Shown piece by piece: positions 29,179-41,117 of a stretch of 41,117 nucleotides of DNA (position 1 is the first letter of the stretch; the number at the start of each line of letters is the position of its first letter). The notes under the pieces were generated by a model. The model ran no database searches. It was given only the letters and a program-made list of their open reading frames with translations, and was not told the DNA's origin. This DNA is from a candidate division CPR2 bacterium GW2011_GWC2_39_10 (GTDB lineage: Bacteria; Patescibacteriota; CPR2), in assembly GCA_000993275.1 (NCBI GenBank), contig LBVV01000004.1:16051-57167 (forward strand). The letters are read 5' to 3'. The position numbers and the translations under genes are program-made.

Positions 29179-30090
29179 GTGAAAAAGAAGAAAAAACAAA
29201 TATTTAGTAAAAAGTTGATTATTGGTCTCATGGTAGTGCTGTTAACGGTTGTGGGATTTTTTGGATTTAGGCAAATAGCTGGATCTTTGGTTCATGTTAA
29301 AAGCGAGAAAAATCAAAAAGTAGAAAATAACAACAAAGTTTCTAGTGACGACAATGTTGCTGTCCACACATATAATTTGCCCGAAGAAGAGCAAAATATC
29401 GTTGCTCCACAAATGGTTTATAAAATAACGCCGATTCCGAAACCTATGCCGCCCCAGACCACATTTGGTTATTCGGTAAACGGCAGGGCAATTGGCGGTT
29501 GGATATTCGGCAGTGGAACTGAAACTATGTTTTTCTTTGGAGCAATTCATGGCTCCGAAAAAGGAACGGTTTCAGCAATGAACAGTTTCGCCAGATACAT
29601 ATTTGATAACCCAACCGTAGTTGGCAAAAACAAAAGAATTATAATCATACCTGTAGCTAATCCGGATGGATATGCAAACAGCAGCAGGCTAAATGGTCAT
29701 GCAGTGGATATAAATAGGAATTTTGATACTGCCGGTTGGACTCCTCAGGGAGCAAATGATAATTTTGGTGGCCCAAGTTCATTCTCCGAACCTGAAAGCC
29801 GACTTATAGGGGACTTGGTGTCAAATTATAACGTTTCAACAATGGTTGCCTTTCATTCTAAGGGTAATCTTGTTCATCCGGAGGCCAATCAGTCGTCTTA
29901 CGACTTGGCGCATCTTTATTCTTCTTATTCCGGTTACAGATATTATAATGATATTGCGTCATACGAGGGCACGGCAACCAACTGGCTTAGGGAGAAAAAG
30001 GGAGGCACTGCAATTACAGTAGAACTAACAAGCCACACTTCTTCGGACTGGACAAAAAACAGGCCGGCGCTCCTTCAGATTATCAAATAA
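29179..30090 (+). CDS. Secreted/anchored M14-family zinc carboxypeptidase
   Basis: 303 aa with a GTG start. A basic N-terminus (KKKKKQIFSKK) and one TM/signal anchor (about 13-31) are followed by a linker and an M14 domain. Zinc ligands are seen as H124-x2-E127 in GAIHGSEKG, with the third His in MVAFHSKGN. Substrate-binding motifs are NPDGYANSSR and DINRNFD (177-183). The catalytic Glu is near 282 in ITVELTSHTS. Related enzymes (MpaA, murein-peptide amidase type) cleave the gamma-D-Glu-meso-DAP bond, so a peptidoglycan or peptide substrate outside the cell is likely. It lies 16 bp after the glycosyltransferase. Confidence 0.88.
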   Translation: MKKKKKQIFSKKLIIGLMVVLLTVVGFFGFRQIAGSLVHVKSEKNQKVENNNKVSSDDNVAVHTYNLPEEEQNIVAPQMVYKITPIPKPMPPQTTFGYSVNGRAIGGWIFGSGTETMFFFGAIHGSEKGTVSAMNSFARYIFDNPTVVGKNKRIIIIPVANPDGYANSSRLNGHAVDINRNFDTAGWTPQGANDNFGGPSSFSEPESRLIGDLVSNYNVSTMVAFHSKGNLVHPEANQSSYDLAHLYSSYSGYRYYNDIASYEGTATNWLREKKGGTAITVELTSHTSSDWTKNRPALLQIIK

Positions 30091-31783: not shown

Positions 31784-32626
31784 GTGAAACTTTTTCTTAA
31801 AAGAAAAGCTGGTTATGCGATAGCAACCATTGCGGGACTGGCACTACTTAGCGGCAACATTTTTGCGGCTAAATGGTCAGCAGGGAATGACACCACGGGT
31901 GCTAATTCCGAAAACGATGCAATTATTAATGTCAAGAATGATGCAAAAATCGAGAACGAAAATCGAACTGACGTTGATAATAACGCAAGAGTGAAAGCAA
32001 ACACGGGCGACAATGAAGCAAACTACAACACAGGGAGCGGCACAGTGAGATCGGGAGATATTGATCTTGCTTTTGACATTGCCACCATGATTGGATTTGA
32101 AGACATGGATATGGATATGGGCGGCGGAACGTGGTCTATTAGTGTTGGTAACAAAACAACCGGTTATAATTCTGACAATGATGCGAAAGTTAAGATCAGT
32201 AATAAATTCAAGTTGAAGAATGAAAACAAGACTGACATTGATAATTACATCAATGCCTGCTTGAACACGGGCGACAACGAAGCCAACTACAATACCGGAA
32301 ATGGTTCGATAACTAGCGGCGATATTGATTTTGAAACTAAGCTAAAAAGCCAAGTAGATTTGGGTTCCGGTGGTCCATTGGCAATGCCTAAAATGGGTGA
32401 TATTTCGGCAGGCAACAACAAGACAGGGGCAAATTCGGAGAATGACGCAATAGTCAACTTAACAAACAAGATGACTATTGAGAATGAAAACAAAACAAAC
32501 ATTGATAACAAGATTTGCATCAACGCAAACACCGGCGACAACGAAGCCAACTATAACACCGGCAATGGTTCCGTAACTAGTGGTGACATCAGCGGCAGTG
32601 TTGCTGTCACAAATACCGTAAAGTAA
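31784..32626 (+). CDS. Secreted Asn/Thr/Gly-repeat protein 1
   Basis: 280 aa with GTG start and a very strong Shine-Dalgarno (AAAGGAGG). Signal peptide MKLFLKRKAGYAIATIAGLALLSGNIFAA. The mature chain is three ~80-residue repeats. Each has 'TG(A/Y)NS(E/D)NDA(I/K)' followed by 'I/LENENKT(D/N)IDN', then the core 'NTGDNEANYNTGNGS(V/I)TSGDI'. Linkers between repeats are Gly/Met/Asp-rich (EDMDMDMGGGTWS). No anchor follows the last repeat, so it is probably released or assembled extracellularly. The G-x-N-x-A spacing is reminiscent of curlin-type beta-ladder repeats, but this is analogy only. First gene of a co-directional surface cluster. Confidence 0.85.
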   Translation: MKLFLKRKAGYAIATIAGLALLSGNIFAAKWSAGNDTTGANSENDAIINVKNDAKIENENRTDVDNNARVKANTGDNEANYNTGSGTVRSGDIDLAFDIATMIGFEDMDMDMGGGTWSISVGNKTTGYNSDNDAKVKISNKFKLKNENKTDIDNYINACLNTGDNEANYNTGNGSITSGDIDFETKLKSQVDLGSGGPLAMPKMGDISAGNNKTGANSENDAIVNLTNKMTIENENKTNIDNKICINANTGDNEANYNTGNGSVTSGDISGSVAVTNTVK

Positions 32627-32641
32627 CGTTTAAAGGTTGTT

Positions 32642-32674
32642 TGGAGGGGCTTACCCTAGGTGTAAGCCCCTCCA
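32642..32674 (+). promoter_or_regulatory. Perfect intergenic hairpin without T-run
   Basis: TGGAGGGGCTTAC (32642-32654), a 7-nt loop CCTAGGT and GTAAGCCCCTCCA (32662-32674): 13 perfect base pairs, GC-rich. It is followed by AAAATGCGGAGAT and not by T's, so it is not a standard forward terminator. It lies 15 bp after repeat protein 1 and 16 bp before the start of repeat protein 2. Likely an mRNA-stability or processing element allowing unequal expression of the two genes. Confidence 0.7.
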
Positions 32675-32690
32675 AAATGCGGAGATAAAA

Positions 32691-34583
32691 ATGAAAAAAA
32701 GTTTAAATATAATTATATATAAGATGACAGCAACGGTTAGCATTTTTTTGATGATTTTTGTAAATTCCGGATTGGCTATTGCCGAAGTAACGACAGAGGT
32801 TCCAACTCCAACTCCAACTCCGGCAGCAGTTAATGCGGAATCTATCGAGAAGAAAGATGTGGTGACGGTTACGCCGACTCCAACGCCCGTTCCCGTGATC
32901 GAGGTTTCGAATGTTCAACCCGAACAAAAAAAAGAATGCGGCACCATTGGGGTAACGGGTAACATCGGAGATGTTGGCAATAAAAGTGAAATAAAAATCG
33001 ATCAAAGTAATCAAAATGTAACTGATACCGATATTGGTGCGGGAATTATATCCGGAAAAAATGATGCCGATTATAACTCCGGCAATGGTATCGTTGGCGC
33101 CGGTAATGTACAGGGTTCGGTAAATTTAATTAATTCAGACAGCAGCAATATCGAGGGACCCGTACAAACCGGAGTACTTGCTACAAAAGACTTAACGGGG
33201 ACGTTAAGCATCGGCGACCTCTTGACCTATTTGGATGCCAATTCTAAAAATTCTACCACGGGTCAAAATTCAGAAAATACAGCGCTTGTCGATTTAATAA
33301 ATACGGTAATTTTTAAAGACAATTTTTCAAACAGTATTAATAATAATTTGCCAATAAACATAGATACCGGCAACAATTCCGCAAGCTACAACACCGGCAA
33401 CGGAGCAATAGTAAGCGGAGATGTGGACTTGGCGGCAAATATTCTAAACCTAATTAATAGCTCGTTTGTCGGTAAAGTAACTGTTGGCATGTTAAATATT
33501 TTTGGAAATTACTTAGGCGATATTTTGTTGCCTAAGAGCAATGATCCAAGTAACTCCGGAGGGATAGTTGCTGTTTCCGCCGGAAATAGCAATACCGGCC
33601 AAAATTCCGATAATGCTGCAATTGCTGAGGATACTTACAAATATATTTTTGTGAGTAGTCAAACAAACTCAATTCAAAATACCTTACCGGTTAATATAAA
33701 TACGGGCAACAATAATGCCGATTATAACACCGGAAACGGCAGCGTCCAATCCGGCAGTATTAATGTAAAGTCCAACACGGCATCCATCATTGGAGCCATT
33801 TTCGATGGCAGTAAATGGTATTTGCTTTTAATAAATGTTTTAGGTGATTGGTTCGGCGGAAGCGAAGCGGCTAATAATCAAAACGTTGTTTCGGGCAGAG
33901 ACGGAGAGAACTCGGATATTGCTGCAAGCAACGATAACACCGGCCAAAATTCCGACAACACCGCTGTGTCAAGTACCAAAAATGATATCGAAATAAAAGA
34001 TAATTCTCAAAACGCAATCGAAAATAATATGCCCGTTAACATTAACACCGGCAATAATAACGCCAACTACAACACCGGAAACGGCAGCGTCAAATCGGGC
34101 GATGTTAACTTAATCATTAATTTCATTAATTTCATTAATTCTCAAATAAAAGCTAAAGATATTGGAGTATTGTTCGTGAATATATTTGGTAATTGGAAGG
34201 GGAGTGTCAAATATGAGGACAAGAGGGTTGTGAAGGTGGATACTGCGCAAAATAGCTCTCAAAAAATTACCATAGAGCAGTCCGTTCCGGGAAGCAGTGT
34301 TGATGTTGGTGAAAATAAATTAGCTTTGAGTGTCAAAAACGATAGTTCTGTTAATTCGGAAAATAATGTGACAGTCACGGAAAAATCAGAGGTAAAGTCG
34401 GGCAACAATTCTTCGGAAGTAGCGTCATTTAATAACGCCCTTGATGATAAAGGCGGCAATAATAATTCCCAGCCTGTTTTAGCGGGACTAAGTTTGTCAT
34501 CCGTCTTGGCTTTAATAATAATTTTGGCGATCGCTTATCAAATAATATTAAATAAAAGGTTTATTAAAAGGGGAAAAAGATGA
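32691..34583 (+). CDS. Secreted Asn/Thr/Gly-repeat protein 2, membrane-anchored
   Basis: 630 aa. A signal peptide (about 1-32) is followed by a Pro/Thr-rich spacer (TPTPTPAA.., TPTPTPVPV) and a degenerate repeat (NDADYNSGNGIVGAGNV). Then come three full repeats of ~110 residues: 'NTGQNS(D/E)N(T/A)A', a variable strand region, 'NN(L/M)P(I/V)NI(N/D)TGNNxA(S/D/N)YNTGNG', then a hydrophobic block with V(N)xxGxW/Y (NIFGNYLGD, NVLGDWFGG, NIFGNWKGS). A fifth, eroded repeat precedes a C-terminal TM helix (LSLSSVLALIIILAIAYQIIL) and basic tail (RFIKRGKR). Probably displayed on the surface with its C-terminus in the membrane. ATG 32691 has GGAG eight bases upstream. Overlaps the next gene by ATGA. Confidence 0.85.
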   Translation: MKKSLNIIIYKMTATVSIFLMIFVNSGLAIAEVTTEVPTPTPTPAAVNAESIEKKDVVTVTPTPTPVPVIEVSNVQPEQKKECGTIGVTGNIGDVGNKSEIKIDQSNQNVTDTDIGAGIISGKNDADYNSGNGIVGAGNVQGSVNLINSDSSNIEGPVQTGVLATKDLTGTLSIGDLLTYLDANSKNSTTGQNSENTALVDLINTVIFKDNFSNSINNNLPINIDTGNNSASYNTGNGAIVSGDVDLAANILNLINSSFVGKVTVGMLNIFGNYLGDILLPKSNDPSNSGGIVAVSAGNSNTGQNSDNAAIAEDTYKYIFVSSQTNSIQNTLPVNINTGNNNADYNTGNGSVQSGSINVKSNTASIIGAIFDGSKWYLLLINVLGDWFGGSEAANNQNVVSGRDGENSDIAASNDNTGQNSDNTAVSSTKNDIEIKDNSQNAIENNMPVNINTGNNNANYNTGNGSVKSGDVNLIINFINFINSQIKAKDIGVLFVNIFGNWKGSVKYEDKRVVKVDTAQNSSQKITIEQSVPGSSVDVGENKLALSVKNDSSVNSENNVTVTEKSEVKSGNNSSEVASFNNALDDKGGNNNSQPVLAGLSLSSVLALIIILAIAYQIILNKRFIKRGKR

Positions 34584-35110
34584 AAAAGACTATATTCTTC
34601 ATGTTCGGGCTGTGTATGTTGTTTTTTGCTTCCGGAGCGAGGGCTGAGTCTGTTATCAATTCCAATACCGGTGCTGATAGTAAGAATAGGACGGAAATAA
34701 ATTTAGAAAATTCCTTTTCTGTCGAGAATGATAATCAAGCAACGGTAGATAACTATAGCCGAATAGAAGTTAATACCGGCGACAATGAAGCAGAGAGTAG
34801 CACCGGCAACGGATCTGTTACCTCGGGAGATATCATTATAAAAGAATCGATATCAAATGAAATCGAAAACGAATTTCAGGTTTCCCAGTCGCCAACTCCA
34901 AGTCCAACTGTTGTTCCAACTCCTACGCCTGCCATAATTGAGGGAGGTGTTGGCGGTGCTCCAGAAACTCTTGCCACGATTGAAGCTGGTGTTGGAGGTT
35001 TGCCGGATCAATTACCAGGCGTGGGAAGTCAAGTGGGATTATTGTCACTTCTTGCATCGTTCGCGGGCACAATGGTTTACGCAATTCACCGATACAAAAA
35101 ACTAGCTTAA
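34580..35110 (+). CDS. Secreted Asn/Thr/Gly-repeat protein 3 with LPxxG-type C-terminus
   Basis: 176 aa. Signal peptide (about 1-22, ending ARA) and a single repeat: NSNTGADSKNRTEI, VENDNQATVDNYSRIEVNTGDNEAESSTGNGSVTSGDI. Then a Pro/Thr/Ser spacer (SPTPSPTVVPTPTP), two GVGG motifs (GGVGGAPETL, AGVGGLPDQ), LPGVGSQ, a hydrophobic helix and YKKLA. The LPxxG-helix-basic arrangement resembles a sortase-type sorting signal, although the canonical LPxTG is not matched. Start overlaps the stop of protein 2, so it is translationally coupled; Shine-Dalgarno AAAAGGGG lies upstream. Confidence 0.8.
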   Translation: MKKTIFFMFGLCMLFFASGARAESVINSNTGADSKNRTEINLENSFSVENDNQATVDNYSRIEVNTGDNEAESSTGNGSVTSGDIIIKESISNEIENEFQVSQSPTPSPTVVPTPTPAIIEGGVGGAPETLATIEAGVGGLPDQLPGVGSQVGLLSLLASFAGTMVYAIHRYKKLA

Positions 35111-35229: not shown

Positions 35230-35886
35230 ATGAAAAAAGCCGTGATGGTTTTGGTTGTTTTGTTTTTTCTTGGGGCACCTGCCTATGCATGTGACGGAAA
35301 TTCTAAGAATTTTGACTGTCAGATGAGAAAAGTAGCAGAAGAGAAAACAGAAAACATTAAAGACAGAAATTATGAATTCAAAAAGGCCATAAAGAACAAG
35401 AACTTACTTAAGAAAGAGTGTGATAATAATTTTAAATGTGTTATGCGGGATGCCGTCTTTGAGAAAAAAGAGACGACAAGCGCTATAATGCAAGAATTTA
35501 AGGAAGACAAGAAAGAGGTCAAGGAATGCAGGTTTGAAGACAAGGAAAAGTGCAGTAAGGATAAACGTCATGACTGCGATAAAAGGGAAAAGTGTGACAA
35601 AGTCGAGCGCCATGAATGCAATTGCCGTTGTGGCAAGGGTGGCTCAAAACCAACTCCAACTACAATTCCGGTTTCCACACCTTCGCCAATTCCGACAGTA
35701 GAAGTTGGTCATACGCCAACTCCAAGTCCAACTATTCAGGCAGGTGTTGGCGGCGCTAATCCGGAAAATTTTTCAACGCCTACAGTGTTGCCAAGAGCAG
35801 GATCTGATATGTTATTCTTTGTTTTGTCAACTTTGCTTACAGGTGCGGTTGCAATGCATTACAGATTTAAGCTTAAACGGTCTTAG
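35230..35886 (+). CDS. Secreted Cys-rich charged protein with LPRAG-type sorting signal
   Basis: 218 aa. Signal peptide MKKAVMVLVVLFFLGAPAYAC. Two similar helical modules follow, each opening with a cysteine pair (CDGNSKNFDCQMRK.., CDNNFKCVMRDA..). Next is a Lys/Asp/Cys/His-rich region (CRFEDKEKCSKDKRHDCDKREKCDK, HECNCRCGKGG), probably disulfide-linked or metal-binding. Then comes the Pro/Thr spacer TPTPSPTIQAGVGGANPE shared with repeat protein 3. The end is VLPRAGSDMLFFVLSTLLTGAVAMHY..KLKRS, i.e. LPxxG, hydrophobic helix and basic tail, like a sortase substrate. Start 35230 is chosen for the signal peptide and Shine-Dalgarno AAAGGGAG. No sortase gene is in the window. Confidence 0.8.
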   Translation: MKKAVMVLVVLFFLGAPAYACDGNSKNFDCQMRKVAEEKTENIKDRNYEFKKAIKNKNLLKKECDNNFKCVMRDAVFEKKETTSAIMQEFKEDKKEVKECRFEDKEKCSKDKRHDCDKREKCDKVERHECNCRCGKGGSKPTPTTIPVSTPSPIPTVEVGHTPTPSPTIQAGVGGANPENFSTPTVLPRAGSDMLFFVLSTLLTGAVAMHYRFKLKRS

Positions 35887-36212: not shown

Positions 36213-36294
36213 TTTTGGTATTATTTAATTCGTGGAGGGATTATCCATTTTATATATAAAAAATAACTAATAATTGGAGGGTAAGGAGGAAGAA

Positions 36295-38245
36295 GTGAAG
36301 CAAAGGTTAAAGAAAGGAATTGCATATTCCGTGGCGGCACTCCTGAGTTTGCAGATGTTGACTTTGTCGGTAATCGCTTTTCCACAAGCCGCATTGGCTG
36401 AGGGGGGAAAGTATTTAAAGATTAATGACTCGGTTACGGAAGAAACTCAGGTTTTAGCGCCAAACGAACAAAGCGAGAAAATAGCTGTGCAATTATGGCA
36501 AAATGATGGCGGGGAAGATAGTGTCTATACGGCAACAGAAAAGGTGCAGTTAACATTGACATCAAGTTCAGCAACCGGCTTATTTTCGGCAACAGAAGAA
36601 TGGGAGGATGACAATGACATCACCATCGCTACTACGAGAACTCAAGCCAGTTTTTATTACAAAGACACAACTCCGGGCGTTCACGTTATAACCGTTTCGG
36701 ATTCGGATGAGGTTAGTGTTTTTGGGAGCGTAACTTATAGTATTACGGTACTCGACAGATTTTGACAAGATCGATTGGGAAAACGTTGAAGCAGATGATA
36801 TAAAATATAATGTTCAAATTGAAAATGTGGAAACAAACGCAATTGTTTTCGCCATGGATAATCTAGTTATTTCTGAGACTTCGGTTGGATTACTTACTGA
36901 CGGAAGCTACGAAATAAAAGTTGAGAGTTATGTCCTGTCCGGTGGAGTTACCTATAATTTAGGTGAAGATAAAGTTGGCGTAACCGTTGATAATACGGCA
37001 CCGATTGCTGTTCAAAATTTTGAAGTAAAAAACAACCAGGTCGCCCCTATTGGCGGTTCTGTAGTAATGACATGGAGTTTAAACGACACGGACACATCCT
37101 TAGATAGTTATATCGTTGGTTGGGAAGCACTAGATGAAGATGGTTTAATTGTTTCCGGATTCAGAGAAGTTAAGGGAACGGAAAATTCCTTAACAGTTGA
37201 AGGGCTGGTTAATGGTTATAATTATTCCTTTGCAATTGTAGCTGTCGATATGGCTGGAAACTTTAGTCCGGAATCTGAAGGAGTAGGATTAGTAGTTGCA
37301 GACATTATGGGTCCGAATCCGGTTACAACTTTACCGGCTGCAATTAATTTAAAGAATTTCCCCTCTATCGATTTTCAGATTATTTCCAACGAGCCGTTAA
37401 ATTCTGATAAAATTGAAGTTCAGATTAAGGACGACGGCGGCAATAATTATGGACCGGTTATTACCCTCGATCAAATAATTGGAATTGATGAGGACGGCAA
37501 CGAAGTTCTAACCGATGTCTATGAAGCTTCCAGTTTCCCAAATTTTTTAAAGGTTGAGGGCGATTTTACTTTTAATTTCACCGCCATTGACCTTGCCGAA
37601 AATGAAACCGAAACAAGTATTAAAGTTAAGGTTGACACGTTAGCTCCGTCTTATCTTACAAATCTAAAGAAAACCATGCTGCCGAATGGCGTAAAGTTTT
37701 CGTGGGACCCGTTAGCTGACGGACAAAAAGTAAATATCTATAAAAATGATATGCTAATTGCAGCAGTGGGCGGCTATTTCTTCGATGATACTGATTTGAT
37801 AAAAGGACAGAATTATACTTACTCCTTTGTTGTTGTTGACGAAAATGGTAATGGGTCCGTACCGGTTGGCGCCATTGTCAACTTGGACAATGCAGTTTCG
37901 AACCAGAACAATAGTGCCGTAATAGCTGCAGCTGCAGTTTCTGCTCCGGTTTTAACTACCGAAGCCCCGGTTATTACCAGCAGCACCAGCGAAAAGAAAG
38001 ATGAAGTTAAGGGCGATCAATCATCAAAAGAAATCGCCGGAAATAAAGATGAGAATAAAGACGACAGCTTAAAAGACGACTCTTCGAAGGTCGGAACAAT
38101 AATCCTAATTATTTTTCTTGCCGCGCTAACTTATCTTTATTACAGGAAAAGATTGGAATTTGCGGAAAATACCAAAGCGGCAGTAAAACCAAAAACAGCC
38201 GGCGCTTCCGCTAAGCCAAAAAACGGTAATTCAAAAAAGAAATAA
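36295..38245 (+). pseudogene. Fibronectin-III-like surface protein, interrupted by a +1 frameshift
   Basis: Two ORFs make one protein of ~649 aa. Part 1 (GTG 36295 to TGA 36763-36765): signal peptide KQRLKKGIAYSVAALLSLQMLTLSVIAFPQAALAEG, then an Ig-like domain ending VTYSITVLDRF. Part 2 continues in the next frame with DKIDWENVEADDIKYNVQIEN, then FN3-like domains (VDNTAPIAVQNFEVKN.., about 36990-37300; TLAPSYLTNLKKTMLPNGVKFSW, about 37640-37890), an Ala/Ser/Lys-rich spacer, a TM helix (VGTIILIIFLAALTYLYY) and a basic tail. The break is at AGA TTT TGA C (36757-36766): one T fewer, or a +1 slip of the Phe tRNA on TTTT, restores RFDKIDW. Shine-Dalgarno AAGGAGGA favours GTG 36295 over TTG 36274. 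Either a sequencing indel, a true pseudogene, or recoding. Confidence 0.8.

Positions 38246-40715: not shown

Positions 40716-41117
<402 letters not shown>

Follow-up and report, generated by a model that had tools for sequence, protein, structure and literature searches.

Two adjacent genes of Patescibacteria, here termed P1 and P2, encode exported proteins built from copies of a single ~70-residue repeat unit, keep their order across the phylum, differ in how they are anchored to the cell and, in many loci, are separated by a strong RNA hairpin. We propose a beta-arcade fibre or matrix with P1 as its major subunit and P2 as the anchored base, a reading to which we give an even chance. More tentatively, these proteins might represent a class of bacterial surface fibre not recorded before, spread across Patescibacteria and restricted to them, that combines a new Asn-ladder beta-arcade unit, a P1 polymer and a templating P2 base with anchors that can replace one another (membrane helix, sortase, cohesin-dockerin), for use on the outer surface or in holding hosts. 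Patescibacteria are ultra-small, mostly host-dependent bacteria. Their means of holding on to hosts are largely unknown (PMC12206443), and the two proteins, if they assemble, would be an unrecorded way for such organisms to build an outer surface. What we offer is a pair of genes restricted to the phylum and marked by a recognisable unit, clear anchors and an operon element suggesting unequal dosage; the defined pair, unit and anchors make the question of protein fibres in Patescibacteria directly testable with two recombinant proteins.

The window, meaning the whole 41,117-nt stretch of DNA that was analysed, comes from the CPR2 bacterium GW2011_GWC2_39_10 and contains the following features:

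31784..32626, + strand: P1, exported, 280 aa, three ~70-aa units, without C-terminal anchor; proposed major subunit
32636..32680, + strand: P1-P2 intercistronic RNA hairpin, strong, with no U-tract after the hairpin
32691..34583, + strand: P2, four units behind a signal peptide and a PT-rich linker, C-terminal transmembrane (TM) helix; proposed anchored base or nucleator
34580..35110, + strand: P3, a single unit between signal peptide and PT-rich spacer, then LPGVG, TM segment and basic tail (sortase-type sorting signal)
35230..35886, + strand: P4, secreted, Cys/Lys/Glu-rich, lacking the unit; GVGG...LPRAGS and TM tail

The open reading frames (ORFs) of the three unit-bearing genes, all on the + strand, had been listed as 31784-32626, 32637-34583 and 34580-35110. 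A perfect Shine-Dalgarno sequence (AAAGGAGG) lies directly before GTG 31784, the likely start of P1; P2 is likely to begin at ATG 32691 rather than at the listed TTG 32637, and the probable P3 start, ATG 34580, overlaps the stop codon of P2. The end of P1 contains no C-terminal hydrophobic segment. Scanning the operon for promoters yielded no more than chance would, and the terminator-like sites in the scan all lie on the opposite strand, inside repeats. P4, which has no family match, is conserved in the sister genome CG2_30_37_16 (L032; cluster c26), ends in the same type of tail as P3 and is possibly an additional sortase substrate of the cluster. Elsewhere in the window lie an ordinary neighbour, a zinc carboxypeptidase (M14) with an N-terminal membrane segment (29179-30090), and, at the very end (40716-41117), the 5' portion of a 16S rRNA gene. 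An FN3/Ig-type surface protein (36274-38245) is split here between two ORFs whose frames differ, the frame changing near 36752, and is a single 663-aa ORF in the sister genome.

A hidden Markov model (HMM) of the unit finds three copies in P1, four in P2 and one in P3, matching all three of the adjacent exported proteins for which the initial annotation had described a common repeat; its counts of 3 and 1 copies stand, and its 4-5 for P2 becomes four. When P1 was compared with all six frames of its own genome, P3 was matched at E 5e-16 and three stretches of P2 at E 4e-14 to 9e-11. Seeded with window sequences only, the HMM recovers 193 units in 35 loci and, once iterated, 388 units in 126 ORFs and 53 loci, nearly all of them from Patescibacteria, where similar repeats had been thought possible. 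Taken over 388 copies and 70 columns, the consensus reads NSNTGADSTNTASTNNSNNTTVTNNNNASITNNVNVSANTGNNTANGNTGNGSITTGDANASANVVNLVN. The TG of the entry motif and the TG of the core are spaced by 36 residues in 121 of 127 cases; an entry motif had been ascribed to each unit, which fails for the first P2 unit of the window, where it is missing. Between the two TG motifs every second position is conserved, often as an aliphatic residue or Asn, and the neighbouring positions are free, so that conservation alternates along the long strand (0.98 vs 0.31 bits, p=0.002). The phase of this alternation appears to shift at conserved Gly, fitting beta-strands joined by tight turns.

P1 contains 17% Asn, and the generally high Asn/Gly/Thr/Ser content of these proteins would suit low-complexity linkers with no fold of their own, similar to one another only in composition. 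This explanation is very improbable and already largely refuted: shuffled versions of the 126 unit-bearing proteins produced no match in any of 5 rounds with the threshold unchanged, the 36-residue spacing is fixed, conservation alternates from residue to residue, and confident beta models are obtained for the P2 units. AlphaFold predicts these units as all-beta (pLDDT ~80-91), joined by low-confidence linkers, and gives a poor model of P1 (mean pLDDT 46.5). The beta architecture expected at the outset is supported by the P2 unit models and by the every-other-residue alternation of the unit. Foldseek searches against the PDB and viral models, from which the low-confidence P1 model was left out, returned nothing significant; FapC, a Greek-key beta-solenoid, ranks first (E 1.3, prob 0.01, insignificant), and the presence of both FapC and CsgA among the five insignificant PDB fold matches is a hint only. 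No enzyme or known domain was found in P1-P3, nor any Pfam, NCBIfam, PHROG or PDB-sequence match, and no description of the unit family was found in the open-access subset of the literature, in agreement with the earlier view that no characterised system has this repeat.

Scanning 84,980 species genomes yielded 48 loci, in records named as Patescibacteria lineages (including Saccharibacteria, Levybacteria, Woesebacteria, Giovannonibacteria, CPR2 and Berkelbacteria) or as unnamed bacteria, except for one Rhodoglobus and one Bacteroidetes title. The Actinobacteria and Bacteroidota loci (L047, L074) are single small contigs in two metagenome-assembled genomes, and 296 and 197 other genomes of those two phyla gave only weak matches outside the units, in the signal or linker region; we therefore reject a true presence in these phyla and regard the contigs as probably misbinned. 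A phage, plasmid or viral-contig origin is likewise rejected, as there were no matches. Within a sample of 286 Patescibacteria genomes of at least 90% completeness, 35 (about 12%) have a P2 match below 1e-15, and P2 occurs in 30 of 195 genomes from the class of one Saccharibacteria locus. So patchy an occurrence is hard to reconcile with a main coat, and neither S-layer homology nor a matching fold was found; we consequently hold it improbable that the proteins are subunits of a two-dimensional, S-layer-like coat instead of a fibre, even though export, possible abundance and anchoring (through a membrane helix, sortase or cohesin-dockerin) would speak for one.

The conserved core of the operon consists of two genes, P1 (secreted, without anchor) and P2. 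Of 53 P2 genes, 44 are preceded by a unit gene on their own strand, and 4 of the 9 exceptions sit at contig ends; exactly four units are found in 41/51 P2 proteins, and a simple TM criterion identifies a C-terminal helix in 33/51. Nearly all P1-type proteins have no C-terminal anchor. Specific to P2 across loci is a hydrophobic block, N-(I/V)-(F/L)-G-x-W-x-G, which in the window takes the form N(I/V)(F/L)G(N/D)(W/Y)xG and follows units 2, 3 and 4; an (F/L)G(N/D)(W/Y) block had been claimed after every P2 unit and is absent after unit 1. The export signals and differing anchors of the initial annotation are present in the window, as N-terminal signal segments, the C-terminal TM helix of P2 and the LPGVG, TM and basic tail of P3, so that anchor-less, membrane-anchored and sortase-type proteins do share one repeat. 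The expected co-occurrence of these three architectures holds in part: P1-P2 order is kept across Patescibacteria, and P3 is found only in a subset.

Window P3 has the makings of a sortase substrate (LPGVG, TM segment and basic tail), and two sortases with TLMTC are encoded in its genome, both outside the operon; in three Microgenomates-type loci (L037, L042, L043) a sortase gene directly follows P3. P3-type proteins with LPxxG tails number 12 over the 53 loci, and P3, judged from its occurrence in these sequences, is an optional accessory, which leaves its proposed role as a 'wall-linked cap' unsupported. A further mode of anchoring, cohesin-dockerin, is indicated at L034, L036 and L038, loci other than that of the window: P2 has a dockerin tail (Dockerin_1 over the cut-off in L034 and L036, just under it in L038), and Cohesin is over the cut-off in the P2 neighbours of L036 and L038, the L034 neighbour being cohesin-like by cluster only.

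Additional P2 domains beside the units in many lineages, such as dockerin or DUF11 (the latter in 9/36), raise the possibility of non-polymerising adhesin stalks, in which the units would be rigid beta spacers presenting other regions to a host cell and P1 a distinct protein, secreted or associated with the cell, that binds to P2. All cultivated Patescibacteria have been described as obligate episymbionts (PMC12206443), a lifestyle that agrees with such stalks. We nevertheless consider them rather unlikely, since P1 has no evident binding head, being in most loci just a signal peptide, units and short linkers that ends at or near a unit end, and since the recurrent P1-P2 hairpin suggests an excess of P1.

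This hairpin, far commoner than at control gaps, is new in this analysis. In the window it is a long stem-loop (32636-32680, -29.2 kcal/mol, z -5.1), and folding at z<-3 is seen at 21/36 P1-P2 junctions vs 17/103 control gaps (p=2e-9), where generic same-strand gaps serve as the controls and shuffling in the many-locus test was by mononucleotide. Stem sequences differ between loci, and U-tracts are mostly missing after the stem; we therefore reject an intrinsic terminator between P1 and P2 and read the hairpins as probably stabilising or processing elements. Hairpins within operons (malE-malF, pap) can protect the upstream message, giving the product of the first gene in excess. An equivalent effect on expression would fit P1 as a major subunit made in excess, and the recurrence of the hairpin adds new support to the earlier picture of a released subunit and a membrane-held base, with which the two proteins agree well.

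The units of P1 and P2 are more similar when they come from one locus (0.338) than when they come from different loci (0.267), a difference that lies beyond all 2000 permutations and is seen only in register. P1 is, at the same time, no closer to its own P2 than to that of its nearest relative (22 vs 20), so that strong P1-P2 co-evolution is not supported. What the two proteins show is joint change across large clades, which shared constraint, conversion or repeated duplication could each explain; direct P1-P2 contact is still hypothetical.

According to the fibre or matrix reading, P1 would be exported via its signal peptide as the main building block. Its units would form the layers of a beta-arcade or solenoid, with every second residue (Ala/Val/Ile, conserved Asn/Thr) pointing inward and the Gly of the TG motifs making the turns, and layers would stack within and between P1 molecules to give a fibre or coat, possibly of amyloid character. 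In the 70-column numbering of the unit, Asn24, Asn26, Asn32, Ala28 and Ile30 would share one buried face. P2 could template or hold P1, because it carries the same units; it would be kept on the cell by its C-terminal membrane helix or, in some lineages, by a dockerin on a neighbouring cohesin protein, and its hydrophobic blocks would form a P2-specific base. Where P3 is present, sortase would tie part of the structure to the wall. The hairpin would raise P1 mRNA relative to P2 mRNA and thereby set an unequal stoichiometry, and the assembled product might serve in attachment, including contact with hosts, or as a surface matrix.

FapC, the major subunit of the Pseudomonas Fap system, consists of imperfect repeats that are rich in conserved Asn/Gln/Gly and near-constant in number, and its nucleator is made of the same repeat (PMC12392863, PMC12822426). 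P1 and P2 resemble this system in their exported, imperfect repeats with conserved Asn/Gln and Gly, in near-constant repeat number, and in having a second protein of the same repeat (the nucleator FapB; P2 as proposed base). Unlike Fap, the unit is ~70 aa long, no Fap-type neighbours were recognised, anchoring is by TM helix, sortase or cohesin-dockerin, and the system is restricted to Patescibacteria as far as searched. A search of the PDB, which includes FapC structures, retrieves no chain with the unit profile at E<=10. Membership of the Fap family by sequence is rejected, there being no similarity even by profile.

As in curli (CsgA/CsgB), two proteins share one repeat, one free and one held on the cell, and the G-x-N-x-A motif offers a superficial resemblance. 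The curlin motif, however, is Q-X-G-X2-N-X-A, unlike the TG-x-N-x-A spacing of the unit, which is about three times the curlin length. The curlin repeat (PF07012) is absent from P1, P2 and P3 at E<=1, and the Pfam model found none in 61 members (25 P1, 36 P2) at E<=0.01; membership of curli by sequence is therefore rejected, and the kinship with curlin suggested initially is not supported, a PDB sequence match being absent as well. In our best reading the P1/P2 system would work like FapC/FapB or CsgA/CsgB and be a member of neither, which, if true, would set an independent repeat-built fibre design beside curli and Fap.

A third likeness, to the TasA/CalY-SipW systems, lies in exported matrix protein genes: SipW-type exported proteins are found near the unit genes in about ten, mostly Parcubacteria-type loci, four of which have a SipW-like peptidase. 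TasA has an Ig-like fold and is without the unit of P1-P3, and no SipW-dependent signal was found in the window's own genome.

Several smaller features recur among the loci. Seven Parcubacteria-type P1 proteins (L045, L051, L053, L057, L066, L067, L073) have at their C-terminus a conserved (V/I)N(T/S)x(V/I/L)(T/V)R(I/V)RR-like tail, possibly a docking peptide. Small exported or membrane proteins with VNG-containing segments lie beside P1/P2, one represented by L061 5628-6089 (cluster c2, 9 Saccharibacteria-type loci) and a second by L057 6899-7417 (cluster c5, 5 loci), and may be further parts of the system. A membrane protein represented by L042 4552-5325 (cluster c3, 7 loci) adjoins the unit genes, in most cases immediately upstream of P1, and is DUF4352-like in L029 and L031.
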